Below are positions 181-27,900 of a stretch of 41,675 bases of DNA, one piece after another. The translations under genes were made by a program, and so were the position numbers. Position 1 is the stretch's first letter. Every line of letters begins with the position of its first letter. A model generated the notes under the pieces. The model had not been told where the DNA came from. It ran no database searches and saw nothing but the letters and a program-made list of their open reading frames with translations. The DNA is from an uncultured Pelagibacteraceae bacterium (GTDB taxonomy: Bacteria > Pseudomonadota > Alphaproteobacteria > Pelagibacterales > Pelagibacteraceae), in NCBI GenBank assembly GCA_902592325.1, contig CACJEC010000005.1:1-41675 (forward strand). Direction: 5' to 3'.

Positions 181-1143
181 ATGAAAAATATTTTAGTCAT
201 TGGTGGTGGAGCCATGGGATCAGCATTTACAATTCCATGTCTAGAAAATAATAACAAAGTTGTTATCACCGAACCTTACTCAAAGAGATTTATTAAAGAC
301 CTGTCATCAAAAAATAAATTCCACTCAGCTTTAAAGATTAAACTTCCAAAAAAATTGAAATTCAGAAGATTTTCACAAGATTTATTTCAAGAAAAATTTG
401 ACTTAATAGTAATTGCTTTAAGTCTTTCAGGAATTGATTTTATTGGTAGAGAACTAAAAAAATTTAAAATTAAAACACCAATCTTAGTACTTACAAAAGG
501 TCTAAAATACGAAAAAAAAAATAAAAAGATTTTAACAATTTCTGAGCAATTAAAAAAAAATTATTATGGAATGAACATTTCTATTTTGAAAGGACCTTGT
601 TTAGCTAAAGAACTTGCAAGGAAAAATCAAACCAGCGTTATTGTGGCTAATACAAATATAAATATAGCTAAAAAAATTGGTAAAATGATTTCTACGAAAT
701 ATTACTTAACAGAATTTTCTCAAGATATTATAGGAGTTGAAGTTTGTTCTGCAATTAAGAATATTTATTCAATGATTATTGGAGCCGGTCAAAGTTTAAA
801 TGCATCATCTAATCTGTTTCAAAAATCAGTAATAGAAATGTGCTATTTAACTAAATATTTTAAAGGCAAAGAGGAAACTACCCTAGGTCTTTCTGGAGTT
901 GGAGATTTATATGTAAGTGCAGCCGGAGGAAGAAATAGCAAAATGGGAAGTTATTTAGGAAAAGGATATACTTTTAAAATAGCAAAGAAAAGATTTATGC
1001 CAAATGATACCGTAGAGGGAGAGCAGCTTGCAAGAGAAATTGCACCATTTGTTTTAAAAAAGATTAATAAAAAAAAAATTCCATTAATGAATAATCTATT
1101 AAAAACAATAATTAATAATAAGAAGCTTAAAATTAAAGTTTAA
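181..1143 (+). CDS. gpsA: NAD(P)-dependent glycerol-3-phosphate dehydrogenase-like protein
   Basis: A cytosolic dehydrogenase of the GpsA family, which reduces dihydroxyacetone phosphate to sn-glycerol 3-phosphate for phospholipid synthesis. The 320 residues are close to the usual ~330. Visible motifs are the N-terminal GGGAMGSAF dinucleotide loop (residues 8-16), LTKGLKY (104-110), [10 protein letters not shown] (137-146), the segment around Lys193 (SAIKN, matching the catalytic lysine in ALKN of GpsA) and [11 protein letters not shown] followed by [13 protein letters not shown] (236-262). The C-terminal helical domain is complete. It is divergent (GPCLAKE instead of GPSFAKE), so it may be a paralogue with a different hydroxy-acid or polyol-phosphate substrate. 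It is divergent to the upstream monooxygenase and its stop overlaps the convergent fhs stop by 4 bases. Confidence 0.72.
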
Positions 1144-2822
1144 AACAAACCTTCAATATCACCTTTATCATTAAGCTTAATCGAGTCAGCTGCTGGTACA
1201 CGAGGTAAACCAGGCATCGTCATTATTTCCCCGCAAACAACAACTATAAATTCGGCTCCCGAGGATAATCTCACTTCTCTCACTGGTAAAACATGTCCTG
1301 TAGGTGCTCCTTTAAGATTTGGGTCGGTTGAAAAACTGTATTGAGTTTTAGCAATACAAACTGGCAGTTTTCCAAAACCTTTTTCCTCAAAATCTTTCAA
1401 TTGTTGTCTTACTTTAGTGTCAGCCACTACTTCTCTTGCGTGATAGATTTCTTGAGCTATTTTTTCTATTTTTTTAAATAATGGTAAATTGTCTTCATAT
1501 AAATATTTAAAAGTGTTTTTTTTATCTTCACAAATTTCAACTACATTTTTTGCTAATTCTTCTGTGCCTTTGCCACCATTAGACCAATGAGTACATTTAG
1601 ATGCTTTAACTCCTTGTGTTTTACAAAAGTCTAGTAATGTATTCATCTCTTTATCTGTATCTGTTATGAAGTGGTTAACAGCAATCGTAACTGGAAGACC
1701 AAATTTTCTTGTGTTATTTATATGTCTTTCTAAATTTACTAAACCTTTTTTTAAAGCATCGACATTTTCATTTTTTAATTCATCTTTAGCAATCCCACCG
1801 TGCATTTTTAAAGCTCTAATAGTTGCTACGATAACTACACAGTCAGGTTTAATTCCTGACTTTCTACATTTTATATCTAAAAATTTTTCTGCTCCAAGAT
1901 CTGCACCAAACCCTGCTTCTGTTACAACATAATCTGCTAATTTTAGACCAGCCTTGGTCGCTATAACAGAATTACAGCCATGTGCTATATTTGCAAAAGG
2001 CCCCCCATGAATAATCGCAGGATTATTTTCTAAAGTTTGTGTCACATTAGGTCTTATTGCTTCCTTTAACAAAACAGTCATTGGTCCATGTGCATTTAAA
2101 TCTTTTGCACAAATTGCTTTTTTATCTCTGGTGTACCCGATTGTGATATTTCCAATTCTATTTTCTAAATCTTTTAAATCTGTAGCTAAACAAAAGATAG
2201 CCATAATTTCAGAGGCAACAGTTATGTCAAAACCATCTTGTCTAGGATATCCATTTGCCACACCGCCAAGATCAATCACAATTGATCTTAAAGATCTGTC
2301 ATTCATATCCATTACTCTTTTCCAAACTACTCTTCTAACATCAATATTAAGTTTGTTTCCCCAATAAATATGATTGTCTATTAATGCAGATAATAAATTA
2401 TGAGCTGAAGTAATTGCATGAAAGTCGCCAGTAAAATGTAAATTAATTTGCTCCATAGGCACAACTTGTGCATATCCTCCACCAGCAGCACCACCTTTCA
2501 TTCCAAAAGAGGGTCCAAGACTAGGTTCTCTTAAACATACAATTGATTTTTTTCCTATTTTGTTCAAGCCATCATTTAATCCTACAGAGGTAGTAGTTTT
2601 ACCTTCGCCTGCAGGAGTTGGTGTAATTGCAGTGACTAAAATTAAATTCCCATCTTTTTTTTTAAGTGTATCTAAATATTCCAAGTTTATTTTTGCAATG
2701 TGTCTACCCATTGGACTGAATGCCGAACTCTCATCAGGGACATTAATTTTAGCTAATATGTCCTTGATAGGCTCCATTTTAGCTTCTCTTGCTATTTGGA
2801 TATCTGATTTTACTTCACTCAT
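1140..2822 (-). CDS. fhs: Formate--tetrahydrofolate ligase
   Basis: ATP-dependent ligation of formate to tetrahydrofolate, giving 10-formyl-THF in the cytosol. The 560 residues match the family length. The nucleotide-binding loop [11 protein letters not shown] is at about 68-78, followed by the family hallmark [21 protein letters not shown] (from about residue 99) and [12 protein letters not shown]. In SAR11 this enzyme is part of the oxidation route for methyl and formaldehyde-level carbon from methylated amines, and can produce ATP when run in reverse. It is transcribed divergently from soxBDAG, which releases methylene-THF or formaldehyde, so co-expression is plausible. No clear Shine-Dalgarno precedes the ATG at 2822. 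Confidence 0.95.
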
Positions 2823-2948: not shown

Positions 2949-4205
2949 ATGGAAAAATATTCTATATTCAATTTAGTTAAAAATGCATTTTCTAATCATA
3001 AAAACTGGGATCTAGCCTGGAAAGACCCAACACCAAAAAAAGAATATGATGTTGTTATTATTGGGGGTGGTGGCCATGGGTTGGCTACCGCTTATTACTT
3101 GGCAAAAGAACATAATATCACCAATGTTGCAATTATTGAAAAAGGTTGGATTGGTGGGGGAAATGTAGGACGAAACACTACCATAATAAGATCAAACTAT
3201 ATGTTTGATGAAAACGCTCTATTTAGCGAGTTTGGTATGAATCTTTGGAGAAAGATGAGTCAAGATTTGAATTATAATGTGATGTTTTCTCCAAGAGGAA
3301 TTATTAACCTTGCTCACTCAGATGCTCAAATGAATGTTTATGCTAGAAGAGGCAACTCAATGCGATTGAATGGTATTGACGCTGTATTACTTAACAGAGA
3401 GCAAGTGAAAGAAATTATTCCTATGGCAGATTTTTCTGAAAACGTAAGATTTCCTATTTTTGGTGGATTAATGCAACCAAGTGCTGGGACGGCGAGACAT
3501 GATGCTGTAGCATGGGGCTATGCTAGACAAGCTGACTCAATGGGAGTTGATATAATTCAAAATTGTGAGGTAACTGGCTTTGATGTTTCAGAAGGAAAAA
3601 TAAAAGGTGTTAGAACTTCTCGAGGCGATATTAAAGTTAAAAAGATTGGTTTATGTGTAGCAGGCAGTACCAATATTTTGGCAGAAAAACTTAATATGAC
3701 ATTGCCTATAGAAACTCATCTTCTTCAAGCATGTGTTTCTGAACCCGTTAAACCTGTCTTAGATAGGGTAGTTACTTTTGGCGCTGGTCATTTTTATATA
3801 AGTCAATCTGATAAAGGTGAAATGGTAATGGGTGGAGATTTGGATGGATACAATAGTTATGCCCAAAGAGGAAATTTGCCAACACTCCAACATGTTTTAA
3901 CAGAAGGAATTGCGATGATGCCATTCTTAAGTAAATTAAAAATGCTTAGAACTTGGGGTGGAATAATGGATATGTCTATGGATGGTTCACCTATCATTGA
4001 TAAAACTCACATTGAGGGTTTGTATTTAAATTGCGGATGGTGTTACGGCGGTTTTAAAGCTACACCAGCATCAGGGTGGACTTTTGCTCATACTATCGCG
4101 CAAGACCGGGTTCATGAATTAAATGCTGGATATAGATTAAATAGATTTAATACGGGTCATTTGTTAGATGAAAAAGGACTTGGTACAAAAACTTGGATTT
4201 CATAA
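2949..4205 (+). CDS. soxB: Sarcosine oxidase beta subunit
   Basis: Catalytic FAD/FMN subunit of heterotetrameric sarcosine oxidase, which oxidatively demethylates sarcosine to glycine, passing the methyl carbon to tetrahydrofolate. The 418 residues match the family. A D-amino-acid-oxidase-type FAD fold starts at DVVIIGGGGHG (34-44). His184 in the TARHDAVAWGYAR segment corresponds to the histidine that carries covalent FMN in characterised SoxB proteins (family knowledge). The C-terminal CGWCYGGFKATPASGW segment is also typical. It is the first gene of the soxBDAG operon; soxD starts on the base after its stop. Confidence 0.95.
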   Translation: MEKYSIFNLVKNAFSNHKNWDLAWKDPTPKKEYDVVIIGGGGHGLATAYYLAKEHNITNVAIIEKGWIGGGNVGRNTTIIRSNYMFDENALFSEFGMNLWRKMSQDLNYNVMFSPRGIINLAHSDAQMNVYARRGNSMRLNGIDAVLLNREQVKEIIPMADFSENVRFPIFGGLMQPSAGTARHDAVAWGYARQADSMGVDIIQNCEVTGFDVSEGKIKGVRTSRGDIKVKKIGLCVAGSTNILAEKLNMTLPIETHLLQACVSEPVKPVLDRVVTFGAGHFYISQSDKGEMVMGGDLDGYNSYAQRGNLPTLQHVLTEGIAMMPFLSKLKMLRTWGGIMDMSMDGSPIIDKTHIEGLYLNCGWCYGGFKATPASGWTFAHTIAQDRVHELNAGYRLNRFNTGHLLDEKGLGTKTWIS

Positions 4206-4478
4206 ATGCTTTATATTAAATGTCCGTACTGTGGATGGAGATCACAAAATGAATTTTCTTATGGTGGTGATGCAAGCATTAAAAGACCAAAACTAAATAA
4301 GGAAGTATCAGATCAAGATTGGGATAATTTTGTTTACAATAGAAAAAGCTTAAGAGGCAAACATTGGGAGTTATGGCAGCATTTGTCGGGTTGTCGACAA
4401 TGGATAAAAGTTGAGAGAGATACGGCAACACATGAAATTTTTAAAACTCTTAAAGCCGATGAGGATATTTCATTATGA
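4206..4478 (+). CDS. soxD: Sarcosine oxidase delta subunit
   Basis: Small zinc-binding structural subunit of heterotetrameric sarcosine oxidase. In 90 residues the zinc ligands known from characterised enzymes (Cys6, Cys9, His59, Cys63) are all present at exactly those positions: CPYC at 6-9, then QHLSGC ending at 63. It starts immediately after the soxB stop and overlaps soxA by ATGA, so translation is probably coupled. Confidence 0.94.
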   Translation: MLYIKCPYCGWRSQNEFSYGGDASIKRPKLNKEVSDQDWDNFVYNRKSLRGKHWELWQHLSGCRQWIKVERDTATHEIFKTLKADEDISL

Positions 4479-7471
4479 CACAAAATTTTAGATTAGAAGG
4501 TGTAGGATTAATTAATAGAGAGAAAAAAATTTCATTTAAATTTAATGGTAAAAAATATTATGGTTATGAAGGTGACACTCTAGCTTCTGCATTGATAGCA
4601 AATGGAATTCATTTAATTGGTAGAAGTTTTAAGTATCATAGACCTAGAGGTTTTTTTGGAGCCGGGGTCGATGAACCTTATGCAATTGTTCAATTATATA
4701 GAAACGGTGAGACAGAACCAAATATAAAATCCACAGAACAAGAACTTTTTGAGGGATTAGAGGCAAAAAGTGTAAATTGTTGGCCAAGTGTTAATTTTGA
4801 TATAGGAGCAATAAATAATTTTCTTAAAATATTTCTTCCAGCTGGATTTTATTACAAAACATTTATGTGGCCAAAAAGTTTTTGGTACAAAGTTTATGAA
4901 CCATTTATCAGAAAAGCAGCAGGTTTAGGAACTGCTTCAATAAAGCATGATAAAGAAAGATACGAACATAAATATGAGTATTGTGACTTATTAATTGCTG
5001 GTTCAGGACCAGCAGGCCTTGCTAGCGCCTATGCTGCTGCAAAAAATGGAGCTCGTGTAATATTAGCTGAAGATAAATCAAGATTTGGTGGAACGCTTCT
5101 TACAAGTGAAGTTAATATTGGTAATAAATCAGGTAAAGAATGGGCAGACGGAGTTATCTCTGAACTTAAAGAAATGCCTAATGTAATTGTTAAAAATAGA
5201 TCTCAGGTATTTGGTTACTATGATCATAACATGCTAGTAATGACTGAAAGAATAAGTGATCATTTACCAAAAACAAAAAAATTTCATCCAAAACAAAAAC
5301 TTTGGTATATTAGAGCAAAAGAGGTTTTAATCTCCTCAGGATCAATCGAAAGACCAATAGTTTTTGGTAACAATGATACCCCAGGTGTTATGCTTTCTTC
5401 AGCAGCAAAAGAGTATATGAAAGTATATGGTGTGCTTGTTGGAAAAAACCCTCTTATTTTTACCAATAATGATAGTGGATATGAAACTGCAATTGAATTT
5501 AAAAAAAATGGTATTGATGCTTTAATTTTAGATACTCGAAAAGATCCTCAATCTGAAATCGTTGAAGAAGCAAAAAATTTAGGAATCAAAATAAAATTTT
5601 CTTATGTTGTTGTAGCCGCCCAAGGTTATAAAAAAGTAAAATCAGCGGATATTGCAAAAATTTCAGATGATAAAGAACAACTTGGAAAAATCGAAAATAT
5701 TAAATGTGATTGTATATGTGTTTCTGGTTTTTGGACACCTACAATTCACCTAGCATCGCAATCAGGAAATAAAACAAAATTTAATGAAAAAATTGATGCA
5801 TTTGTACCTGGAATATCAAAACAAAATGAAACAACTTTAGGTGCTGCAAATGGGACTTATACTTTAGATGAGACTTTAAAAGGTTCATTTGAAACTGGGC
5901 ACAAACTATCAAAACAAATTACTAATAATGATAACAAAGTTTCTTTTCCAAATGTTGTTGAAAAAAAATCAACTGTTCATGATAAATTTTGGTGTGTACC
6001 GCTTCCAAAAGGAAAAAATTACAAACGATTTTTAGACTTTCAAAATGATGTTGCAGTTTCAGATATTGAGATTGCATTGAGAGAAGGCTATCGATCAATT
6101 GAACATGTAAAAAGATATACTACTCTTGGTATGGCAACTGACCAAGGCAAAACAAGTAATCTTAATGGTTTACAGCTAGTTTCTAAGATTGAAAATAAAG
6201 TTGTACCAGCTGTAGGCCATACAACTTTTAGACCTCCTTACACTCCTGTTTCAATAGGTGCAATTGTTGGAAGAGAAGTTGGGAAACACTCTAAACCAAC
6301 AAGAAAATCCCCAATGCACAAATGGCATGAAAAAAATAATGCAGTTTTTGTTGATGCAGGTGTTTGGTTAAGGCCTAGATATTATAAAAGAGGAGATGAA
6401 AATTTATTTGAAGCATCAAAAAGAGAAGCAAAAAATGTAAGAACAAATGTTGGTGTTTGTGATGTAACTACATTAGGTAAAATAGATATTAAAGGACCAG
6501 ATGCAGCAGAACTTCTTAATAGAGTTTATACTAATGCATGGTTAAAGTTGCCAGTTGGAAAAGCAAGATATGGTGTAATGTTGAGAGAAGATGGAATTGT
6601 CATGGATGATGGAACGACTACAAGAATTTCAGAAAATCATTACCATATGACAACAACTACTGCTCAAGCTGCAAATGTTCTCTCACATTTAGAATATTAT
6701 TTGCAACTAGTATGGCCAGAATTAAATGTGAATGTGGTTTCAACAACAGAACAATGGGCTGGAGCTGCAATTGCAGGACCAAAATCAAGACAATTATTAC
6801 AAAAACTATTTACAAATTCTGATGTGTCAAATGAAGGATTGCCTTTTATGGGTTACATGGAAGGAGACTTATTCGGAGTTAAAGCCAGAATTTTCAGAAT
6901 TTCATTTTCTGGTGAGCTCGCTTATGAAATAAATGTAGAGTCTGATAATGGAAACTTTATGTGGGAAAAAATTATAGAAGTTGGACAAGAATTTAATATT
7001 CAACCATATGGAACAGAGGCTTTGTCGACTTTAAGAATTGAAATGGGGCACGTTGCGGGCTCTGAGCTAGATGGAAGAACAATCCCTTATGATAATTCTC
7101 TTGAAGGACTTCTTAGTAAAAAGAAAGATTTTATAGGAAAAAGATCTTTAAGTAGAGAAGCATTTACAGTTGAGGATAGACAAAAAGTTGTTGGAGTAGT
7201 TCCTTTAGATAAAAAAACAAGCATTCCTGAGGGATCACATTTAGTTAAAGACTCAAATGCACCATTACCAAATCCAAAATTAGGTTATATTTCAGCTTCT
7301 TGTTGGAGTGTTGAGCATGATAATCCATTTTCTTTAGCAATTCTTAAAGATGGAAAAAACATGATAGGTAAAAAATTATTTGTGATGTCTCCACTTAAAA
7401 ATAAAGTAATTCCAGTTGAAATAGTTTCTTCACATTATGTTGATCCAAAAGGTGAAAGGGTTAGATCATGA
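4475..7471 (+). CDS. soxA: Sarcosine oxidase alpha subunit
   Basis: Large subunit (998 residues) that binds NAD+ and folate. The N-terminus (about 15-100) resembles a 2Fe-2S ferredoxin-like domain that has lost cluster ligands. A Rossmann domain follows with [21 protein letters not shown] at about 175-195. The last ~380 residues form a GcvT/aminomethyltransferase-type folate domain (from about ADVGVWLRP-like [12 protein letters not shown], through [11 protein letters not shown], to IGKRSL). The folate domain accepts the carbon released from sarcosine to form 5,10-methylene-THF. It overlaps soxD and soxG by 4 bases each (ATGA). Length and domain order match complete family members. Confidence 0.95.
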
Positions 7472-8055
7472 GTTTAATATCAGCCTTAGCCAATGTTCAT
7501 TCAATAGGTCAATTTGGTGATCATGAAGGTAAAAATGAAAATGATCTTTTAAAAATCTCAGAGATAAAAAATTTACTCATAATTCAAATAGTTCAGTATA
7601 AGAATTCTAAATTTTTAATTGAAAATATTGATATTGATGGTTTAAAGTTAAAAGACAGACCATTAAATGTTGTAAATAATAATGAAACAAGAATTTTATG
7701 GAATGGGCCTAAAAATTGGCTTTTAGTTTCAACAAAAAAAGATTTATTAAAAAAAATTTCACAAAATTTTCATGAAACAGATTTTGCAATAACAGACCTA
7801 TCTTACTCAAGAGCTATAATTGAAATAGAAGGACAAGAAGTTAAAGAAGTTTTAAAGAAAGGTTGTCCTTTTAATTTTAATACTTTAGAAAAAAATAATT
7901 CAATAAATTCTATTTATAATGGAATAGCTTTCACGGTTGATATGCTTGATGATAATCCATTTAAAGTAAGAATATTTGCTCTAAGAAGTTTTGGAGAATC
8001 ACTGTATCACTCAATTACGGATGCTTCTTTAGAATTTGGTTTTCATTCAAAATGA
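7468..8055 (+). CDS. soxG: Sarcosine oxidase gamma subunit
   Basis: The 195-residue gamma subunit of heterotetrameric sarcosine oxidase, distantly related to GcvT. Visible family features are the early SALANV segment, [14 protein letters not shown] (corresponding to xGPDEWLL in other SoxG), [26 protein letters not shown] (the DLSHGRxxxxxxGxxAxxxLxxGCP motif) and [15 protein letters not shown] near the end. Its position after soxBDA, overlapping soxA by ATGA, makes the assignment secure. Seven bases separate its stop from the stop of the convergent EamA gene. Confidence 0.93.
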
Positions 8056-9758: not shown

Positions 9759-10505
9759 TTATTTTTTGTATTTTTTCATTGCAGCGTGAGCTAGTATCAA
9801 ATTTGGATCTAAAAAAACTTTTGAGGTTTTAACATTTTTAAATGATTTAAAAGCAAATATTGCGATTGGTAATTCTGTACATCCAAGGATTATTTTCCTA
9901 CATTTCTTTTTTATCAAAAAATTGATAGCAGGTTTAATAGTTTTATTCGCTTCTTTAACTTTACCCATCTTTACAAGTTTTATAGCTTTATTTACTGATT
10001 TTTCTTGAACAATAGAATTAGGAAAAATTAGATTATATTTTTTATCAAAGAATTTATTATAAATTCCAGTCTTTAAAGTACCTTCGGTTGCTAGTAAACC
10101 GATTGATGAATTTTTTTTACACGTTTTAAGAGTATGATTAAATACTTCTTTTGGCATGTTGATTATTGGTAGTTTAATTTTTCTTTTTAAGTCGTTATAC
10201 CAATAATGAGCTGTATTACATGGCACTACTATAAATTTACATTTACTTTTTTTAAGTAGCTGACAACCTTTTAATAAGCTTTTTAAAACTAAATTATATT
10301 TTCTTTTACTCTTATTATTTACAAATCGATTTGATAAATTTTTGGTATGTACTCCAATTGACTCTGGTCTTCCAGGAATATTAGCTTTATTGTAAAGTAA
10401 AAATAGTGGATACTCTTGATCAATTTTACCTCTGTTTAAAATTGCAAGTTTATTACAGAAGTCAAGCCCAGCTTGTGTACCCATTCCACCAAGAATACCA
10501 ATCAT
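9759..10505 (-). CDS. Aspartate/glutamate racemase family protein
   Basis: A cytosolic, cofactor-independent racemase-type enzyme (248 residues) of the Asp/Glu racemase superfamily. The N-terminus MIGILGGMGTQAGLDF is the family signature. The two catalytic cysteines are both present: Cys96 in VPCNTAHYW and Cys209 in LGCTELPI. Relatives interconvert L- and D-aspartate or broad-specificity amino acids. The exact substrate is not determined by these motifs. The start at 10505 lies just beyond the terminator of the upstream csp gene on the same strand. Confidence 0.82.
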   Translation of the reverse strand: MIGILGGMGTQAGLDFCNKLAILNRGKIDQEYPLFLLYNKANIPGRPESIGVHTKNLSNRFVNNKSKRKYNLVLKSLLKGCQLLKKSKCKFIVVPCNTAHYWYNDLKRKIKLPIINMPKEVFNHTLKTCKKNSSIGLLATEGTLKTGIYNKFFDKKYNLIFPNSIVQEKSVNKAIKLVKMGKVKEANKTIKPAINFLIKKKCRKIILGCTELPIAIFAFKSFKNVKTSKVFLDPNLILAHAAMKKYKK

Positions 10506-11396: not shown

Positions 11397-12443
11397 TTAT
11401 TTCAAAATTGTTAAATGACCCATTTTTCGCTTCTCTTTAATATCTTTTTTAAGATAATCAAAAAAAAATTTATTACTATCAAGTTTAGGATTTTCTCTAT
11501 ATTGAACGATCTCACTACCTATTATATTAAACATTTCCGCATTAGATAATTTTTTGACAGTAATTTGATCTAAAGAACAAACAGCTCTAACATGATTTTC
11601 AAACTGACTTATATTGTATGCATTGATTGTTAAATGTCCTGAATTATGTACTCTTGGAGCAATTTCATTAACATATAGATTATCATTTCTGTCTATAAAA
11701 AATTCAACACATAAAGTTCCAATATATTTTAATTCTTCTGCAATTAAAATTGCCCACTCCTTTGATTGATTTAAAATCTTTTCAGTAATATTTGCTGGTA
11801 TTTTTGAATGTCTTAAAATTTGATCTTTATGTATATTTTCAATTGGCTCATAAATTTCATATTTATTTATATTAAATCTAGTTATTATCACTGAAATTTC
11901 TTTTTTCAATTTGACTAATTTTTCTAAAATATAATCTTTTCTAAAATCTATATTTAAAGATTCAATATCTACAATATTTTCAATTAGATGTTGTCCTTTT
12001 CCATCATAACCCATCGTTGTAGTCTTCAATATTCCAGGTAAAAAATCTTCTAACGGTAAAAGATCTTCTTTGTTTTCAATATGAACATATCTCGTAGTTC
12101 TAATATTAAGTTTATTAATAAAATCTTTTTCAGCTAATCGATGCTGAATTAAACGATTAACTGATGGTTTTGGTAATACAGTTTTGAGTTTATTTAATTC
12201 ATTTAAAGTTTCAAAAGGAATGTTTTCAAATTCATAAGTAATAATATCAACTTTTTGAGCAAAATCATAAATTTTATTTTTATCTTTATATTCTGCATAA
12301 ATGAACTGATCACAAAAATTTTGTGCTGGTGCTTTTTGGTCATCACAGTAAATGATTGTTTTGATATTTAATTTTCTAGCAGCAACAGATAACATACTTC
12401 CTAGTTGACCACCTCCAAGTATCCCAAGTTTAATTTCTGACAT
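11397..12443 (-). CDS. purK: N5-carboxyaminoimidazole ribonucleotide synthase
   Basis: ATP-grasp enzyme that carboxylates AIR to N5-CAIR using ATP and bicarbonate in de novo purine synthesis. It starts with LGILGGGQLGSMLSVAARKLN (about 6-26), the PurK signature, and carries TTTMGYDGKGQ (about 141-151) and the C-terminal ATP-grasp metal-binding stretch EFFIDRNDNLYVNEIAPRVHNSGH with YTIEA-like HLTINAY. The 348 residues are normal. Its ATG overlaps the purE stop by one base (TAATG). Confidence 0.95.
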   Translation of the reverse strand: MSEIKLGILGGGQLGSMLSVAARKLNIKTIIYCDDQKAPAQNFCDQFIYAEYKDKNKIYDFAQKVDIITYEFENIPFETLNELNKLKTVLPKPSVNRLIQHRLAEKDFINKLNIRTTRYVHIENKEDLLPLEDFLPGILKTTTMGYDGKGQHLIENIVDIESLNIDFRKDYILEKLVKLKKEISVIITRFNINKYEIYEPIENIHKDQILRHSKIPANITEKILNQSKEWAILIAEELKYIGTLCVEFFIDRNDNLYVNEIAPRVHNSGHLTINAYNISQFENHVRAVCSLDQITVKKLSNAEMFNIIGSEIVQYRENPKLDSNKFFFDYLKKDIKEKRKMGHLTILK

Positions 12444-12934
12444 TATTTAGGATTTTTTTTCACAGATTTAGTTTGAGATAGTCTCCAACTTTTTAGTTTA
12501 TTTTTAATCTTCAAATTGTTGTTTCCAATGATTGATGCTGCTAACAGGGCTGCGTTAATTGCTCCATCTTCACCAATTGCAAGAGTACCTACTGGTATTC
12601 CCTTAGGCATTTGAGATATTGATAGTAAGCTATCTAAACCTTTTAATTTTTTACTTTCAATAGGTACACCTAATACTGGTAATGGAGTTAAAGAAGCAAT
12701 CATACCAGGTAAATGTGCTGATCCTCCAGCACCTGCAATAACAACTCCTATATTATTTTTTTCAACATTAGATGCATACTCATACATTCTTTTAGGGGTT
12801 CTGTGAGCAGAGATGATCTTTGTTTCGAACAAAACTCCTAAATTTTTTAGAGTTTTTTCACATAATTTCATAACCTTATAATCAGACTGGCTACCCATTA
12901 CAATCGATACTTTAAGAGCTTTATTTTTGTTCAT
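12443..12934 (-). CDS. purE: N5-carboxyaminoimidazole ribonucleotide mutase
   Basis: Class I PurE, converting N5-CAIR to CAIR in purine synthesis. All the class signatures are visible in 163 residues: VMGSQSDYKVM (about 12-22), ISAHRTPKRMYEY (about 41-53, containing the catalytic His) and AGAGGSAHLPGMIAS (about 67-81). It is the first gene of purE-purK-GNAT on the minus strand and is divergent from the M19-like gene at 13030 across about 95 bases. Confidence 0.95.
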   Translation of the reverse strand: MNKNKALKVSIVMGSQSDYKVMKLCEKTLKNLGVLFETKIISAHRTPKRMYEYASNVEKNNIGVVIAGAGGSAHLPGMIASLTPLPVLGVPIESKKLKGLDSLLSISQMPKGIPVGTLAIGEDGAINAALLAASIIGNNNLKIKNKLKSWRLSQTKSVKKNPK

Positions 12935-13029: not shown

Positions 13030-13995
13030 ATGAATTTTAGAATAGATAACCTTCAATATTGTAATTGGTCACGAAAAATTTTCGAGATCAACAAAGAGGC
13101 ATGTCTAGATGCTGTTCATGTGACTATTGTTTATCATGAAGACTATGATGAACTACTTACAGAAATAAAAAAATGGGAAAAATTATTTAATGAAAATTCA
13201 GATTTAATTTTTTTAGGTAAAGATTTTAATGATATTAAAAAAGCTAACAAAGAAAATAAGACTGCAATTTTTTTTGGTTTCCAAAATTGTTCACCAATCG
13301 AGGATAATATTAATCTAATTGAAAAAGTACATGAACTAGGTTGTCGATTTATGCAGCTGACTTATAATAATCAATCTCTACTAGCAACAGGATGTTACGA
13401 GAAAATAGACAGTGGTGTTACTAATTTTGGCAAGGAGGCTATACGGGAAATGAATAAAGTTGGAATAGTTGTTGATATGTCTCATTCAGCTGAGAAAAGT
13501 ACCTTTGATGCTATTGAATTAAGTCAAAAACCTATTGCAATCACTCATGCAAACCCAAGTTTTTGGCATGCAGCAAAAAGAAACAAATCTAATGATTTAT
13601 TGAAAACTTTAGGAGAAAGTGGAGGGATGTTGGGTCTTTCTTTATATCCACATCATTTGAAAGATAATAATAATTGTACGCTTGAAAGTTTTTGTGAAAT
13701 GACAGCAAGAACTGCAGAAATTATGGAGGTTAAAAATATTGGAATCGGATCAGATCTTTGTTTAGAACAACCAGATAGTGTAGTTGAATGGATGAGAAAT
13801 GGTACTTGGTCTAAAAATAAAAATTATGGAGAGGGATCAAAAAACAAACCTGGTTTTCCAAAACAGCCAGTATGGTTTAAAGATGCTAGAGGTTTTAAAA
13901 ACTTAGAAAAAGGATTAAAAAAGATTGGTTTCTCCGAAGATGAGACTAATGGGATACTTGGTAATAACTGGTTCAATTTTTATAAAAATATTTAA
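13030..13995 (+). CDS. M19 (renal dipeptidase-like) amidohydrolase, variant metal site
   Basis: A member of the membrane-dipeptidase (M19) family, TIM-barrel zinc hydrolases that cleave dipeptides or related amides. Matching segments are GCRFMQLTYNNQSLLATGC, the SGVTNFGKEAIREMNKVGIVVDMSHSAEKS region with metal-ligand His, and PIAITHANP, then a late IGIGSDLCLEQ (metal Asp). However, the N-terminal HxD metal motif of canonical M19 enzymes is not visible; the equivalent region reads DAVHVTIVYHED. I chose the ATG at 13030 (MNFRIDNLQYCNW); an in-frame TTG at 13006 would add eight residues. The next gene begins on the base after its stop, so it heads a tight run of four genes of otherwise unknown function. 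Confidence 0.8.
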   Translation: MNFRIDNLQYCNWSRKIFEINKEACLDAVHVTIVYHEDYDELLTEIKKWEKLFNENSDLIFLGKDFNDIKKANKENKTAIFFGFQNCSPIEDNINLIEKVHELGCRFMQLTYNNQSLLATGCYEKIDSGVTNFGKEAIREMNKVGIVVDMSHSAEKSTFDAIELSQKPIAITHANPSFWHAAKRNKSNDLLKTLGESGGMLGLSLYPHHLKDNNNCTLESFCEMTARTAEIMEVKNIGIGSDLCLEQPDSVVEWMRNGTWSKNKNYGEGSKNKPGFPKQPVWFKDARGFKNLEKGLKKIGFSEDETNGILGNNWFNFYKNI

Positions 13996-15651
13996 ATGCA
14001 AGTTCAATTAAGAAGTCCTAATATTATAATGAAATTATCTAGACTTGGATCTTTTCATCAATCAAAACTATCTTTTTTAAGAAGTTTTTTAGATGAATTT
14101 AAAGATTGGGATTATAAAAGAGATTTATTTGATTTAGATGAGTATGGATATGGAATTGCAGTTTATTCTTTTAAAAAAAAAAATAGAATTTATTCATTAG
14201 TATGTTTTGCAAACGAAATAAGCGATAAAGATAGATCCGATAGAGTTATCGCAACTAAATGGGACGCTGCTTTTACTTTGCATGATGGAACTCCTACTAA
14301 AAAAGATATTGAAAGATTGAAAAAAGAAGTTCCAAAACAAGAAGTAGGCAGGTTATCATATAAAGAGCTTACGCTTTCAAGAGCTAACAAATCAGTAAGA
14401 ATATTTAATCATGTTGTGGAAAGTTTAAGTAATGGTCATCAACCAGATTCAAATCTTTTAGAAAAAGTTGGATATCTTTATAGAACTACAGCAGTTTATG
14501 GGTCCGGCAAGTTTGGCCTAGCAGACAGATTTAGAATTAAAAATAGAGAAGAGATTAATGGTCCATTTAGGCTTGAGATGATGTTAGTTTATCTTGTAAG
14601 ACAATTTACTTTTGATCAAGTAAATCATGTTGCAAAATCCAAAAATCCTAAAACCGCAGTGAGTCTTGACCTCAAAATTTGTAAAAAATTAGGAATTGGT
14701 AATTCTACGGGGCTTGGTATGGCACCTTTTATCGTGAATCATCCTACATTATTAAATAATTGGATTATGAGTAGAGAAATTGCATTAAAAAAAATTAGAG
14801 AAATAAAAAAAATAAAATCTAATGAAATTGAAGTATTTAAAAATAGTTTAAAAAACTCAATTAAAAATATTACAAGTTGGAATTCTGAGAGCGAATATCA
14901 AAAAATAAAAATTAACTCTCTTTTAGAAGATATCAAAAAATTTTTAAATTTTATTGAGACCAAATTTAATTTTGAGGTAGATTATCCTTTTAATGAAATT
15001 TACTTATGGATAGAACAGAAAACTTGTGAAGAATGTATAGAGTATATAGTTTCGATGATGCTCGAACCTTTCGATTACATTGTCAAACCTTTAGTTAGTC
15101 AAATGAGCTCAGAAGAAGATAAATATTTTACTATACCAACACATCGTAATGTTGAGGATTTAAGAAATATTATTGAAAAAAGATATCCAGATATTTTAAA
15201 AATTAATTTTACTAAGAAAGAAAATTATAAAAACTTTTGGTTTATATCAAAAAACAAAGAAGAACCTAGGTATGCTGATAGGTTCAAAGAAATTGGTTCA
15301 AATTTAGAGCAACCATTAGCTATCGCTAGAGATATTAAAAAATTACATAGTCAGCTTATAATTTCAAAAAATAATTTAACAATTGACAAGTTTTTGGTTC
15401 AAAATAATGATTTAAGACATGTTGTGCGAAGAGCTTTTATTATTGAAAAATTTCCGTATTCAGAAATTCAAGATAATACAATCGGTGAAAATGTAGTTCC
15501 AATCGATATGTTAAGGTTAAAATTATCTTTTTTTGGTGCTTTAAAATTTGATCCAAGATCAGATAAGTGGTTAAGAATATGTATGTTTCAAGGTGCACCT
15601 CTTCCTACAGAGTTAAAAAACTTTGATCAACAATGGATTTATAATTCCTAA
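13996..15651 (+). CDS. Large protein of unknown function in the M19/DUF3726 cluster
   Basis: Not recognised. The 551 residues appear soluble, with no signal peptide or transmembrane helix. The N-terminal half is rich in conserved-looking short motifs (KLSRLGSFHQSKLSFLR, ATKWDAAFTLHDG, GSGKFGLADR, STGLGMAPFIVNHP); the middle (about 265-330) is Lys/Glu-rich and probably helical; a CEEC motif follows at about 340. The C-terminus ends VPIDMLRLKLSFFGALKFDPRSDKWLRICMFQ. GSGKFG resembles a glycine loop but is not a complete Walker A with downstream Walker B, so I do not call it an ATPase. It directly abuts the M19 gene upstream and is 9 bases from the DUF3726-like gene, implying one operon and a shared pathway. 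Confidence 0.75.
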   Translation: MQVQLRSPNIIMKLSRLGSFHQSKLSFLRSFLDEFKDWDYKRDLFDLDEYGYGIAVYSFKKKNRIYSLVCFANEISDKDRSDRVIATKWDAAFTLHDGTPTKKDIERLKKEVPKQEVGRLSYKELTLSRANKSVRIFNHVVESLSNGHQPDSNLLEKVGYLYRTTAVYGSGKFGLADRFRIKNREEINGPFRLEMMLVYLVRQFTFDQVNHVAKSKNPKTAVSLDLKICKKLGIGNSTGLGMAPFIVNHPTLLNNWIMSREIALKKIREIKKIKSNEIEVFKNSLKNSIKNITSWNSESEYQKIKINSLLEDIKKFLNFIETKFNFEVDYPFNEIYLWIEQKTCEECIEYIVSMMLEPFDYIVKPLVSQMSSEEDKYFTIPTHRNVEDLRNIIEKRYPDILKINFTKKENYKNFWFISKNKEEPRYADRFKEIGSNLEQPLAIARDIKKLHSQLIISKNNLTIDKFLVQNNDLRHVVRRAFIIEKFPYSEIQDNTIGENVVPIDMLRLKLSFFGALKFDPRSDKWLRICMFQGAPLPTELKNFDQQWIYNS

Positions 15652-15660
15652 ATTAATAAA

Positions 15661-16272
15661 ATGAAATCTTTAAGTGAAATAGATACAACATCTAAAAGAG
15701 CAAGTAGGGCTGTGGGATATTCATGGGGAGAAGCAGAAGAAATAGGAAAAAATATTCGTCTTCTAGAACTATTTGGTTTTGCAGGTATAAAAACACTAAA
15801 TAGATATTATAGTGTGAAAGTTAATAAAAAATTCTCAGATTTAAGTTTAATAAATAAAAATAATAAATCAGAGAAACATGCATATTGCCCAATTATACTG
15901 GGTATAAATTTTTTAGATCAAATTAGGTCCCTTGAAAAGTTTAAAATAATTAAATTTAATAAAGTTTCTTTTCCTCTTCTTCTTTTACCTTTTTTAAGCA
16001 GAAGCTCAGAAATAATAGGAAAAAAAATAAATATTAAGTTTGATAAAATTGAGTTTTTATTAAACCTAAATGTAAATATTTCCTCTAATTTGTTGAATCA
16101 AAATTGTCCTGAAATTGCTAATAATGTTGAGATTAAAATCATTGAAAATAAAGATAGTTTCTCAGATAAAGAATGGCAAAGTTTATATAAACTTTCTGAA
16201 GAAACATTTGTTGAAGAAACAGATAGTTTAAAACAGAGTGCTGCAGGAGCAGGATTAACTGATAATGACTAA
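15661..16272 (+). CDS. DUF3726-like protein
   Basis: A cytosolic 203-residue protein of unknown function. The N-terminus SLSEIDTTSKRASRAVGYSWGEAEEIGKNIRLL carries the W-G-x-A-E-E motif (residues 20-25) that I associate with the DUF3726 family of marine and alphaproteobacterial proteins; this assignment is from memory. The C-terminus (VEETDSLKQSAAGAGLTDND) is also distinctive. No enzyme motif or membrane segment is visible. It is the third gene of the run that begins with the M19-like protein, and its last 8 bases overlap the small two-CxxC gene at 16265. Confidence 0.7.
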   Translation: MKSLSEIDTTSKRASRAVGYSWGEAEEIGKNIRLLELFGFAGIKTLNRYYSVKVNKKFSDLSLINKNNKSEKHAYCPIILGINFLDQIRSLEKFKIIKFNKVSFPLLLLPFLSRSSEIIGKKINIKFDKIEFLLNLNVNISSNLLNQNCPEIANNVEIKIIENKDSFSDKEWQSLYKLSEETFVEETDSLKQSAAGAGLTDND

Positions 16273-16435
16273 AAAAAATAGTGAAAGTCTAATTAAAGAA
16301 AAAGATTTACAAGATTTAGACGATGTTTGTGATGAGTGTAAAAAAACAGATGAAAGTGTATCCCAAAATTTAATATTAACTGGATTTAAAATCTGCAAAT
16401 CATGCAGAGTTTCAAAAACAATATTTCCACTTTAA
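16265..16435 (+). CDS. Small two-CxxC (zinc-ribbon-like) protein, 56 aa
   Basis: A short gene overlapping the end of the DUF3726-like gene (ATG at 16265, stop TAA at 16433-16435). The product begins MTKKNSESLIKEKD and contains two CxxC knuckles, CDEC (residues 22-25) and CKSC (44-47), separated by 18 residues, the geometry of a zinc ribbon or rubredoxin-like knuckle. The overlap with the preceding gene and the matched CxxC pair argue for real coding. Its stop overlaps by 4 bases the stop of the convergent YIP1-like gene. Function unknown; a metal-binding accessory of the cluster is plausible. Confidence 0.65.
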   Translation: MTKKNSESLIKEKDLQDLDDVCDECKKTDESVSQNLILTGFKICKSCRVSKTIFPL

Positions 16436-16977
16436 ATATTGTTGATTGGCAGTGTATTCATTCTACTCATCACAAAAGATATTGATAAAAATGCTATAAT
16501 TAAAAAAGATAAAAATACAATTCCAAAAGATTTTACATTAGACTTTAGACTTAAAATTTGTTTTGTTGAAATTATTAAAGCTGCAAATATCCAAAATTGG
16601 GTTAAAAAAATTATTGGTATCATTAACTCTGGTGTTACTGCAAAAAATCGAATTAATCCTGGTGAATGTGCAAAACCAACTGCCGTTAAAACTTTTTTAA
16701 ACTGTACTTTTGTTTGTTTGTCTGGAAAAAGTTTTACACCTATTACATATATAAGAATTCCCCAAACTAACCATGTAAGAATTGCTGTAAGTCCTGACAT
16801 TGCAACAGCAGTTTTTACAATTGTATTAGCTGCTACTGCACCAGCAATTCCATCTAAAATCATAATTAATCCCGCAAAATAAATTCCAGCTTCTCCAAAA
16901 TTTTTGTTATCGCTATAAAGAGATTTGTCTAGTTTAATAGATTTAAAGATTATGTTTAAAAATTCACCAAACATCAT
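16432..16977 (-). CDS. YIP1-domain-like integral membrane protein
   Basis: A 181-residue protein with about five hydrophobic segments. The arrangement resembles the bacterial YIP1 domain family: an N-terminal amphipathic part, then GIYFAGLIMILDGIAGAVAAN, a second and third span (TAILTWLVWGILIYVIGVKLF), the conserved-type stretch FKKVLTAVGFAHSPGLIRFF, and two final spans. Molecular function of bacterial YIP1 proteins is not known. Two adjacent ATGs (16977 and 16974) are possible starts; the first overlaps by ATGA the stop of the 34-aa gene upstream. Confidence 0.7.
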   Translation of the reverse strand: MMFGEFLNIIFKSIKLDKSLYSDNKNFGEAGIYFAGLIMILDGIAGAVAANTIVKTAVAMSGLTAILTWLVWGILIYVIGVKLFPDKQTKVQFKKVLTAVGFAHSPGLIRFFAVTPELMIPIIFLTQFWIFAALIISTKQILSLKSNVKSFGIVFLSFLIIAFLSISFVMSRMNTLPINNI

Positions 16978-17117: not shown

Positions 17118-18476
17118 TTAACCTTTTACAACTTCTCTTGTATTAGCGTTGAAAGATTCTTTAAATGGAATATCAACAATTACAGCATCTACTGGTTTAC
17201 CTGGAGTTTCTGAATATTTTTCTGGTAAATGAACTTTGTATTTAGTTCCAACTTTACCTTTGGGAAATCCATTAGGGTTTAAAGTTCCATCAAAAGGTAC
17301 ATATCCCATCGCAATATTAGTTTTCTTTTCTGGATGCCACCATGGCGAAGTCAAAAATCCAACTGGATCCCCTCCATTTTCAGGAGATATTAACCAAAAA
17401 TCAGGCGCGTAATCGTCAATGGGTTTTCCACCTAACTCCATTCCAACTAATTGAAGTTTATATGGTTTTTTTCCAGCTTTTATGTCTGCACCCATTTTCT
17501 CAAGAGCAGCTTTACCAACATAGTCAGATTTTTTGTTCCATTCACCTTTGCCAGATAATGAAACTTGATAACCTAAATTACATTGGTATGGGTTATGTTG
17601 TTGATCCATATCTTGTCCCCAAGAAAGAATACCAGCTTGAATCCTTCTATGATGTGCTGGAGCTATAACCATCAAATTGTGTTTTTTACCTGCTTCTAAT
17701 ACTGCATTCCACATATCTTCAGCATATAATGTTGCATCTCTTAGATATACTTCATAACCAGCTTCACCAGAAAAACCTGATTGAGAAATAACACAACTTC
17801 TTCCACCAACCTTAACTTCTGCCAAACCATAAAACGGCATATTGTCAAAATCAACCTGATCCCCGCAAAGGTCTTTCATTAAAGCTTTTGATTTAGGGCC
17901 TTGAATTTGAACTGGACATGCATCTATTTCTTCTATTGTGCAATTAAATCTTCCATCAGCATTAACACCTTGTAGATACATACCAATATCAGAGTCAGAT
18001 AATGAAAACCAAAATTCATCTTTTGAAATTCTAAGTAGAATTGGATCATTTAAAACTCCTCCATATGCATTACACAAAATTACATATCTTGCTCTCATGG
18101 GTGAAATTTTAGTTGCATCTCTTGTAATAACATAGTCAGTAAATTTTTCTGCATCAGGACCTTTAACTCTTATTTGTCTTTCAACAGCAACGTTCCACAT
18201 TGTAACATGATTTACAATTGCATCGTACTCAACCATTGCTCCACCATCTTCAGGTTTTACATAACCTCTGGGATGATAAATACGATTATACACAGTAGCT
18301 CTCCAACAACCAGCTTGCATTGATAAATGCCAATAAGGTGATTTTCTAACTCTTGTTGAAATTAACATTTCAACTTTTGTTGGTCCACTTTGTCTCAAAT
18401 TATATGGCACTTCCCGATCTGATTGATCAACTGAAGTAACATGTTTTAATTTATTATATTCAAACTCTTTAGACAT
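17118..18476 (-). CDS. GcvT/DmdA-family tetrahydrofolate-dependent demethylase-like protein
   Basis: A folate-binding aminomethyltransferase-fold protein of 452 residues, longer than GcvT or DMSP demethylase DmdA (~370). Family segments are TVYNRIYHPRGY, VAERQIRVKGPDAEKFTDYVITRDATK (about 95-122), ARYVILCNAYGGVLNDPILLRI, VQIQGPKSKALM, QSGFSGEAGYEVYL and the C-terminal barrel with GFLTSPWWHPEKKTNIAMGYV. Enzymes of this fold move a methyl or methylene group from an amine, sulfonium or methoxy substrate to tetrahydrofolate. It follows a MetF-like gene and overlaps it by 8 bases, as expected for a demethylase feeding methyl- or methylene-THF. The substrate cannot be read; a DMSP, betaine or methoxy compound are alternatives. 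Confidence 0.82.
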   Translation of the reverse strand: MSKEFEYNKLKHVTSVDQSDREVPYNLRQSGPTKVEMLISTRVRKSPYWHLSMQAGCWRATVYNRIYHPRGYVKPEDGGAMVEYDAIVNHVTMWNVAVERQIRVKGPDAEKFTDYVITRDATKISPMRARYVILCNAYGGVLNDPILLRISKDEFWFSLSDSDIGMYLQGVNADGRFNCTIEEIDACPVQIQGPKSKALMKDLCGDQVDFDNMPFYGLAEVKVGGRSCVISQSGFSGEAGYEVYLRDATLYAEDMWNAVLEAGKKHNLMVIAPAHHRRIQAGILSWGQDMDQQHNPYQCNLGYQVSLSGKGEWNKKSDYVGKAALEKMGADIKAGKKPYKLQLVGMELGGKPIDDYAPDFWLISPENGGDPVGFLTSPWWHPEKKTNIAMGYVPFDGTLNPNGFPKGKVGTKYKVHLPEKYSETPGKPVDAVIVDIPFKESFNANTREVVKG

Positions 18477-19242
18477 AACTATTCTCCTTCAACCACTTGT
18501 TTGTTTCCTTCAAGCCGCCGAATGTATAAATGTGGAAGAAATCAGTATGCGATTTAACTTTCCCAATTAAATCATTAGGGTCTTTAGGTTTTAATAAATC
18601 TAACGCCTTACTAAAATTAGATTTAAGAAAATTTAAGGAATTTTTTGCTCCAACAATATTTGCAAACTTTATTAAGCTTGATATTTTTAGAGGCCCAGTA
18701 ATTCCAACATGAACTGGCACGCTTTGTTTAGAGATAAAGTCTATTATAGGCTGAGGATCTAATAACCATTGGGTTACAATATAATCAGCATAAGGCTTTT
18801 TATCTGTCATAGCTTTTTCTAAATCTGAATCGGATATATCAGGACTCCCCTCTGGGTGTCCAGCAATTCCTATTGTCATCTTCTCAAAATAACCAGTCTC
18901 TAAAAGTTGAAACGAGCTATCAAATTTTCCCATAGGCTCTCGACCTCCACCAATTATTAAAGCCTGTTTTACCCCTCCATCTTTGCATCTCGAAACATAA
19001 TCTTTTAGCTGCTTTTCATCATGCATTGACCTTGCAGGAAAATGAGGTACTGGGTTAAAACCTTTTTTTACGAGCTCAACCGCTTGTTGAGCTGTCTCTT
19101 TATAGTCCCCTCCAGGCAACATAGTTATATAAACATCCTTTACTGGAGGCACTGTTGAAAGGTCAGTTTGAGGACCAATTTCCAAAGAAAATTTCATTCC
19201 CTGATCATTATCTTTTTTAAAAAAGCTGTCAAAGAAATTCAT
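18469..19242 (-). CDS. Methylenetetrahydrofolate reductase-like protein
   Basis: A TIM-barrel flavoprotein homologue of MetF, which interconverts methylene-THF and methyl-THF. Recognisable parts are the strand-1 EIGPQTD segment, PHFPARSMHDEKQLKDYV (MetF HLTC position), GGVKQALIIGGGRE (corresponding to the LRGD region), MTIGIAGHPEGSPD (matching AxYPExHP) and YIVTQWLLDP (matching iTQxFFD). It is divergent from housekeeping MetF and has no adjacent methionine synthase, so a catabolic role with the GcvT-like protein is likelier. I chose ATG 19242 (MNFFDSFFKKD); ATG 19197 (MKFSLEIGP) is an alternative, and the frame stays open upstream to 19371. Confidence 0.8.
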   Translation of the reverse strand: MNFFDSFFKKDNDQGMKFSLEIGPQTDLSTVPPVKDVYITMLPGGDYKETAQQAVELVKKGFNPVPHFPARSMHDEKQLKDYVSRCKDGGVKQALIIGGGREPMGKFDSSFQLLETGYFEKMTIGIAGHPEGSPDISDSDLEKAMTDKKPYADYIVTQWLLDPQPIIDFISKQSVPVHVGITGPLKISSLIKFANIVGAKNSLNFLKSNFSKALDLLKPKDPNDLIGKVKSHTDFFHIYTFGGLKETNKWLKENSYV

Positions 19243-19281
19243 TTGAGAGTGTGGCGAAATTTGTTGCTTAAAAATTTTCGC

Positions 19282-26174: not shown

Positions 26175-26923
26175 TGAAAATATTAGTCGCTGTTAAAAGG
26201 GTAATTGATTACAACGTTCAAATAAGAGTTAAAGAAGATGGCTCAGGAATTGTGACAGACAATGTAAAAATGTCTACTAATCCACCTGATGACAATGCAA
26301 TAGAAGAAGCAGTAAAAATAAAAGAAGCTGGTAAAGCAACCGAAGTAGTTGCGGTAACAGTTGGGGAGGAGAAAGCTCAAGAAACAGTTAGGAAAGCTTT
26401 AGCAGTTGGTGCTGATAGAGGTATTCACGTTAAAGCAGATGGTATTATTGAGCCTTTAGCAGTTTCAAAAATATTACAAAAAATAGTAGATAAAGAAAAA
26501 CCAGATTTAGTATTCATGGGTAAACAAGCAATTGATGATGATTGCAACCAAACAGGACAAATGTTGAGTTCTTTATTAGATTGGCCCCAAGCAACATTTG
26601 CTTCTAAAATTAATGTTAAAGATGGAAAACTTGAAGTTGTTAGAGAAATTGATGAAGGGTTGGAGACAATTGAAATCGCCACGCCAGCAATAGTTACATG
26701 TGATTTAAGACTTAATGAACCTAGATATGCTTCATTGCCAAACATAATGAAAGCAAAAAAAAAACCAATTGAACAATTAAATGCTTCCGACTTAGGTGTT
26801 GATGTAGCACCGAAAATACAACAAATTAAGGTTGAAGAGCCTCCTAAGCGTAAGGCTGGAATAAAAGTTTCAAGTGTTGCTGAGTTAGTTCAAAAATTAA
26901 AAAATGAGGCAAAAGTCATATAA
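26174..26923 (+). CDS. etfB: Electron transfer flavoprotein beta subunit
   Basis: The AMP-binding beta subunit (249 residues) of the ETF heterodimer, which accepts electrons from flavin dehydrogenases. Family features are [20 protein letters not shown] at the start, [18 protein letters not shown], and the recognition-loop region near [19 protein letters not shown] (about 180-198). One-base TAATG overlaps join it to the DMGDH-like gene and to etfA. The linkage suggests the dehydrogenase is a main donor, though ETF may serve others. Confidence 0.95.
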
Positions 26924-27876: not shown

Positions 27877-27900
27877 TTTATTCTGTAAAAAATATAGATT

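Follow-up and report, generated by a model that had tools for sequence, protein, structure and literature searches.

The window analysed here is the whole of a 41,675-nucleotide stretch (contig CACJEC010000005.1, assembly GCA_902592325.1) from an uncultured Pelagibacteraceae bacterium. Four genes follow each other on its forward strand. An amidohydrolase gene of the M19, or renal-dipeptidase, type (13030..13995; Pfam Peptidase_M19, E 5.4e-69) is joined by a 0-base junction to the gene of a 551-aa protein (13996..15651), whose family has no credible match in Pfam, NCBIfam or the PDB. A DUF3726 gene (15661..16272; Pfam DUF3726, E 6.3e-23) starts 9 bases after it and is overlapped by 8 bases by the gene of a 56-aa protein with two CxxC motifs (16265..16435). 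The purE-purK genes (11397-12934) are divergent from this group, and a 181-aa open reading frame (ORF; 16432-16977) is convergent with it. We report that the first three genes are a conserved unit and that they probably represent the SAR11 core of an operon whose substrate is an N-methylated pyridinium betaine and whose product is N-methylglutamate; the betaine is most likely homarine (N-methylpicolinate). SAR11 here denotes the window's family in the genome searches.

Gene order and distribution of the M19–551-aa–DUF3726 unit

A previous sequence-only reading of this DNA had described the four ORFs, their junctions and the genes on both sides, all of which are present as it gave them. The convergent ORF had been called YIP1-like; Pfam gave no match for it at E 1 or better. 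The four genes had further been taken as one operon; this is supported, but a single functional unit of all four is not confirmed, because the CxxC gene behaves apart. An Rfam scan returned 0 matches at gathering scores, a promoter scan found 22 sites versus 25.1 in shuffles and hence no excess, and terminator-like sites numbered 2 versus 0.9 in shuffles.

Among genome contigs, 591 stretches matched the search pattern and at least 571 of them code for a relative of the 551-aa protein; the best 80 were used as SAR11 loci. Of the best 80 matches of this protein, 79 are titled Pelagibacterales, Pelagibacteraceae or Pelagibacter and one 'Alpha proteobacterium'. The genes are real, as seen from their recurrence over these 80 loci (M19 80, 551-aa 80, DUF3726 79 and CxxC 72). 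One SAR11 contig has the 551-aa gene broken by an in-frame stop (L142, 10001-11650). Homologues of the 551-aa protein were found in 68 of 101 near relatives, in 54 of 385 genomes of the class and in 29 of 398 genomes of the phylum, the latter sample overlapping that of the class. Of 72,556 plasmid records, 168 carry one as well, among them records from Vibrio and from the archaeon Natrinema, while 28 pattern-matching stretches of viral contigs encode no such relative.

Outside the window's family, 58 loci were scored for neighbours at fixed score thresholds. Of these, 52 have M19 and 50 have DUF3726, so that the genes stay together rather than being scattered over other genomes, a possibility that the sequence-only reading had wished to see checked. 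Eight loci lack a DUF3726 match at the threshold: five have a same-strand ORF after the 551-aa gene, among them that of Vibrio, which matches DUF3726 at E 2.2e-17, in two a hypothetical protein is annotated at that place, and the last is L067. M19–551-aa–DUF3726 is thus a conserved unit, its order being found again in further families and orders where the flanking genes differ.

Eight genomes of the same genus were inspected, and three of them (G029, G051 and G016) lack the 551-aa gene and have the purE site assembled. All three keep the CxxC gene at the same site, and none of the 58 loci outside the family has the CxxC protein at the score thresholds used. For these reasons the two-CxxC protein is probably a neighbour and not part of the unit, which speaks against the metal-binding accessory role once suggested for it. 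Two genomes from a different genus of this family, G198 and G475, retain purE-purK, and none of the unit, the CxxC gene or the gene formerly labelled YIP was seen in them. The absence of the unit from three same-genus genomes with preserved flanks also contradicts the suggestion that its pathway is essential.

Features of the three proteins

The nearest PDB structure to the M19 protein is 2i5g (E 6e-52), ahead of renal dipeptidase 1itq (E 9.4e-18). At the position of Glu125 of 1itq, which we take to be the bridging zinc ligand of the renal enzyme, the window protein carries Gln. The same Gln is found in 8/8 aligned rows, the window's included, and 8/8 rows also keep two His and one Asp further on, presumably ligands likewise. 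The Pfam match starts at profile position 44 only, and the aligned rows show no N-terminal His-x-Asp, a motif that presumably contributes zinc ligands in M19 enzymes. By this exchange of a ligand Glu for Gln the protein is, as judged from its residues, not a normal dipeptidase. Its closest solved relative has the same Gln at the Glu125 position; we assume 2i5g to be PA5396 of Pseudomonas aeruginosa, which stands in a different operon context. Of the amide- or dipeptide-cleaving activity suggested previously, an amide-type hydrolase remains and an ordinary dipeptidase does not. Its proposed role is the hydrolysis of an N-formyl or amide intermediate.

For the 551-aa protein, neither Pfam nor NCBIfam gave a credible match. 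A Pfam scan of 31 family members hit 14 families, each from a single member only, and a profile of the family compared with PDB sequences yielded two matches, both at chance level (E 0.55 and 0.58). A structural model built from an alignment of the window protein and 66 of the 80 SAR11 loci reached a mean pLDDT of 73.5 and a pTM of 0.79. Foldseek searches of this model against PDB and BFVD returned nothing at E 0.001 or better, and a structure search with VIA gave a best Z of 4.4. Fold prediction and search of the single protein, as had been recommended, thus matched no characterised family or fold. Low-confidence stretches of the model include conserved ones, so that a new fold is no more than a possibility. 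We propose the 551-aa protein as the putative large subunit of a ring-attacking enzyme.

The DUF3726 protein gave a firmer model, with a mean pLDDT of 90.8 from an alignment of the window protein and 44 loci. Its top structural matches were all of the Ldh_2 type (15/15, Z 8.8-10.8; next row 3.6), with 164 residues aligned over about 280 chain residues, and the best match by Foldseek alone had E 8e-3. The Natrinema protein in the DUF3726 place matches PF02615 at E 4.8e-9 with 36.2 bits, just under the cut-off of 38.8; searches of the PDB at E 0.01 and of NCBIfam at 1e-20 returned nothing for it. When aligned by profile with the Ldh of the operon, a weak alignment (probability 36%), DUF3726 has a gap where Ser-His of the SHG motif would stand, presumably the catalytic residues of Ldh_2. 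DUF3726 hence appears to share the fold of the malate, ureidoglycolate and piperideine-carboxylate dehydrogenases of the Ldh_2 family, but lacks about 110 residues and the Ser-His pair. The model suggests that it is most likely a degenerate, inactive Ldh_2 derivative; a literature search for the name DUF3726 found no papers. From the adjacency of the genes we propose it as a candidate small subunit or partner of the 551-aa protein. Both proteins had been regarded as further enzymes of the pathway; this fits the pair, but for DUF3726 a degenerate subunit is more likely than an enzyme in its own right.

A tentative extension of this proposal, which we hold with slightly less than even confidence, is that the 551-aa protein and its inactive Ldh_2-derived partner would constitute a new kind of enzyme complex for opening an N-methylpyridinium ring, possibly with a new fold, the SAR11 genes being a minimal form with the aldehyde and imine steps outsourced.

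The adjacent sarcosine-oxidase-type operon

On the side of purE-purK away from the unit, the window carries a forward-strand operon of the sarcosine-oxidase type. It consists of an mgdA/soxB-like gene (2949..4205; TIGR01373 over cut-off), a 90-aa ORF (4206..4478) assigned to the mgdB/soxD-like place by its position between the A and C subunits only, an mgdC/soxA-like gene for 998 aa (4475..7471; TIGR01372 over cut-off) and an mgdD/soxG-like gene (7468..8055; Pfam SoxG, E 9.2e-5, over cut-off). It adjoins a formate-tetrahydrofolate ligase gene, fhs, on the reverse strand (1140..2822; NF010030 over cut-off). The type of the operon was judged from a tree of the alpha subunit. In this analysis, GMAS denotes the type-III glutamine synthetase family TIGR03105, which we take to hold gamma-glutamylmethylamide synthetase. 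Passages of an earlier SAR11 study call glnT a putative gamma-glutamylmethylamide synthetase and leave open which of two SAR11 soxBDAG operons is N-methylglutamate dehydrogenase (PMC3160333).

The tree has 86 rows, namely 83 of 86 matches from 40 genomes (two pieces and one identical duplicate were taken out) and three plasmid copies. A row was given a label if a TIGR03105 gene over cut-off, or else the 551-aa gene, is no more than 20 kb away. One clade of 37 rows (SH-aLRT 98) contains 6 of the 8 GMAS-adjacent copies, 10 of the 12 copies adjacent to the 551-aa gene, the window's included, and 21 of the 66 others. Fisher's test on this clade gave p 2e-4 for both labels, 0.045 for GMAS alone and 0.003 for both labels without the four SAR11 rows, values that are not corrected for relatedness. 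The three copies nearest to GMAS (1.6, 2.7 and 5.2 kb) fall inside the clade, and the window's copy groups with a copy from genome G130 that lies 12.8 kb from GMAS (SH-aLRT 100). The window's operon may consequently encode N-methylglutamate dehydrogenase (MGD), resembling MgdABCD in that its mgdC-like subunit belongs to the clade with most GMAS-adjacent copies. It differs in that SAR11 has a second such operon, whose copy falls outside the 37-row clade, and in that the activity of the window's operon is predicted only. Of the two soxBDAG operons of SAR11, the tree favours the copy beside fhs as MGD.

The distribution of the two gene sets points the same way. In the class sample, where a SoxA-type gene of any clade was counted at E 1e-100, it occurs in 50 of 54 genomes with the 551-aa gene versus 98 of 331 without (p 3e-19, uncorrected). 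Within the family, an MGD-type copy was defined by at least 65% identity to the window's copy. Among 61 family genomes, 30 have both this copy and the 551-aa gene, 8 the 551-aa gene alone, 7 the MGD-type copy alone and 16 neither (p 3e-4), i.e. the copy is present in 30 of 38 genomes with the 551-aa gene versus 7 of 23 without. The other SoxA copy shows no link to the 551-aa gene in the same 61 genomes (30, 8, 21 and 2; 30/38 versus 21/23; p 0.29). At the three assembled 551-less sites mgd is absent too. In four of the seven genomes with MGD alone, which were inspected, the contig ends before the 551-aa site in all four; in the eight with the 551-aa gene alone, all inspected, the contig or stretch ends first in four (G007, G025, G028 and G057), and the other four (G049, G059, G032 and G008) are genomes with fhs and gnat assembled but no mgd between. 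Among the 64 SAR11 loci that reach at least 9.5 kb upstream of the unit, 53 have mgdC in that stretch, and L142, one of the 11 without, shows the end of mgdC at its edge.

Several observations weigh against this assignment, and with it against the homarine pathway as a whole. In the tree, the clade does not take in two GMAS-adjacent copies (8.8 kb away in G220, 15.2 kb in G772) and two copies adjacent to the 551-aa gene (18 kb away in G520, 19 kb in G358), and among its 37 rows there are 21 without either neighbour, for which reason the MGD label can only be inferred. Missing contigs partly explain the co-absence, the unit and the mgd operon being about 6 kb apart. Seven genomes or loci (G049, G059, G032, G008, L140, L145 and L146; L147, whose contig is as long as that of G059 at 28,361 bases, was not counted again) have the unit together with assembled fhs and gnat and no mgd between them. 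In G061 the other SoxA type alone is present, and G067 shows no SoxA at E 1e-60; the relatives in genus g2 have, in place of mgd, a gene for a type-III glutamine synthetase upstream. Outside the family, only 7 of the 58 loci have a SoxA-type gene. The coupling of the 551-aa gene and mgd is common, not strict.

A candidate route from homarine to N-methylglutamate

Outside SAR11 the unit keeps company with further catabolic genes. A LysR regulator, an aldehyde dehydrogenase, M19, the 551-aa protein and DUF3726 occur together on annotated plasmids of Phaeobacter, Ruegeria, Aliiroseovarius, Pararhizobium, Aminobacter and a Roseateles-labelled record. Five of these six add an Ldh-family oxidoreductase after the set and a betaine transporter beside or inside it (in Ruegeria a BCCT gene between M19 and the 551-aa gene), Phaeobacter neither. 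The 58 loci include 27 with a close aldehyde dehydrogenase, 23 with Ldh and 22 with LysR; 24 encode a BCCT or a glycine-betaine binding protein, and 6 have GMAS. The best models for the operon aldehyde dehydrogenases are 2,5-dioxovalerate and alpha-ketoglutarate-semialdehyde dehydrogenase, with scores under the cut-offs, and the operon Ldh is closest to the delta1-piperideine-2-carboxylate reductase 1wtj (E 6.9e-56), presumably an imine reductase of the DpkA type. In six loci of order-level relatives belonging to genus g2 (L294, L296, L297, L298, L301 and L302), a TIGR03105-like gene lies about 1.8 kb upstream of the 551-aa gene, and at the same place two g3 genomes (L299 and L300) carry a divergent mgd-type operon.

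We favour degradation of a betaine to N-methylglutamate because the LysR, aldehyde dehydrogenase, M19, 551-aa, DUF3726 and Ldh_2 set recurs with betaine transporters and an MGD-type neighbour. Gene order, families, the MGD-type clade, the DUF3726 fold and the changed M19 ligand position are observed; the individual steps follow from gene content and a carbon count. The 551-aa protein and its DUF3726 partner would attack the ring and open it between C5 and C6, giving an N-formyl-N-methyl compound that bears an aldehyde at C5. Formate would be taken off by the M19-like amidohydrolase, the aldehyde dehydrogenase would make the C5 carboxylate, and the Ldh_2 imine reductase, of the piperideine-2-carboxylate-reductase type, would produce N-methylglutamate. 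MgdABCD (2949-8055) could then oxidise this to glutamate and methylene-tetrahydrofolate, and formate would enter tetrahydrofolate metabolism via formate-tetrahydrofolate ligase (1140-2822). C2-C5 and the carboxylate of homarine would map onto N-methylglutamate if C6 leaves as formate. The carbon-gaining pathway suggested by the sequence-only reading is supported by this catabolic context, and the pathway is no longer wholly obscure, since the context points to N-methylglutamate as product.

Two further points count on the opposing side. Four SAR11 genomes (G000, G012, G307 and G397) were compared with the aldehyde dehydrogenase and Ldh of G130 and showed no close orthologues, the best identities being 36% and 34% versus 86% and 71% for G359. 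Since close orthologues were not found in the genomes tested, the aldehyde and imine steps in SAR11 would have to be carried out by distant, unlinked enzymes, as we suppose, or the SAR11 pathway differs. R. pomeroyi, according to PMC8269262, grew more poorly on homarine than on trigonelline.

What is published on these compounds offers partial parallels. Mgd is reported to take part in homarine catabolism (PMC13390433), and R. pomeroyi to draw homarine down fast (PMC12817926). No R. pomeroyi record is among the plasmid records listed (40, 60 and 12 of the 168), and the plasmid collection does not include its chromosome. Homarine catabolism is reportedly described by Ferrer-Gonzalez et al. (2026, Nat Microbiol), with an operon homABCDER of five genes and a regulator, the same number as in the roseobacter operon here; the genes studied here may correspond to it. 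The SAR11 unit differs in lacking an adjacent aldehyde dehydrogenase, Ldh or LysR gene. In the trigonelline (Tgn) route, the N-methylpyridinium ring is opened and an aldehyde dehydrogenase and an N-methylformamide-type intermediate are involved, all three of which resemble our proposal. The 551-aa family, in contrast, matches no known family, and no search for TgnA/B was made in the genome. Ring opening of trigonelline by TgnA/TgnB is mentioned in PMC8269262.

The betaine transporters near the unit, an aldehyde dehydrogenase resembling that for alpha-ketoglutarate semialdehyde and an Ldh resembling a cyclic-imine reductase would equally suit an operon that degrades another betaine, e.g. proline or hydroxyproline betaine, to alpha-ketoglutarate semialdehyde with a sarcosine-oxidase-like demethylation. 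We consider this unlikely, as the adjacent flavoenzyme mostly groups with GMAS-near copies, which fits N-methylglutamate; proline-betaine genes were not searched for. Less probable still is an accessory role of the unit in the use of methylamine via gamma-glutamylmethylamide and N-methylglutamate, in which M19 would hydrolyse a glutamyl amide. The MGD-type neighbours and the type-III glutamine synthetase gene about 1.8 kb from the 551-aa gene in 6 of the 58 loci, all of one genus, are in line with it, but that gene was not found in the other 52 at the threshold used, and the betaine transporters, aldehyde dehydrogenase and Ldh would stay unexplained. A third reading, in which catabolic genes with nothing in common have gathered loosely around purE in SAR11, would agree with the CxxC and flanking genes staying where the unit is absent, but is highly improbable, being contradicted by the three-gene order, which recurs between different flanking genes in other families and orders.

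If SAR11 does degrade homarine, very abundant heterotrophs would use a pool for which degradation genes were not known in 2021, common sea bacteria would be tied to a little-studied source of carbon and nitrogen, an abundant algal compound, and the 551-aa gene could serve as a marker for metagenomes. One ocean survey put homarine at as much as 3% of particulate carbon (PMC8269262), and a correction states that the concentration had been overstated (PMC10134881).

Other genes of the window are recorded here for completeness. An Asp/Glu/hydantoin racemase-family protein is encoded near the unit (9759-10505; Pfam E 1.7e-29). A Rieske oxygenase (19300-20490) has GbcA as its best model, yet lies far under the GbcA cut-off; it is present in 18 of the 49 SAR11 loci that extend 9.5 kb downstream and in 0 of the 3 551-less sites. 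Between the unit and this gene (17118-19260) lie a DmdA-like aminomethyltransferase of 452 aa, under the cut-off for dimethylsulfoniopropionate demethylase, and then a weakly MetF-like protein. At 23742-29520, a DAO and GCV_T protein resembling dimethylglycine dehydrogenase is followed by both electron-transfer flavoprotein (ETF) subunits and ETF-QO, together a methyl-oxidation module.

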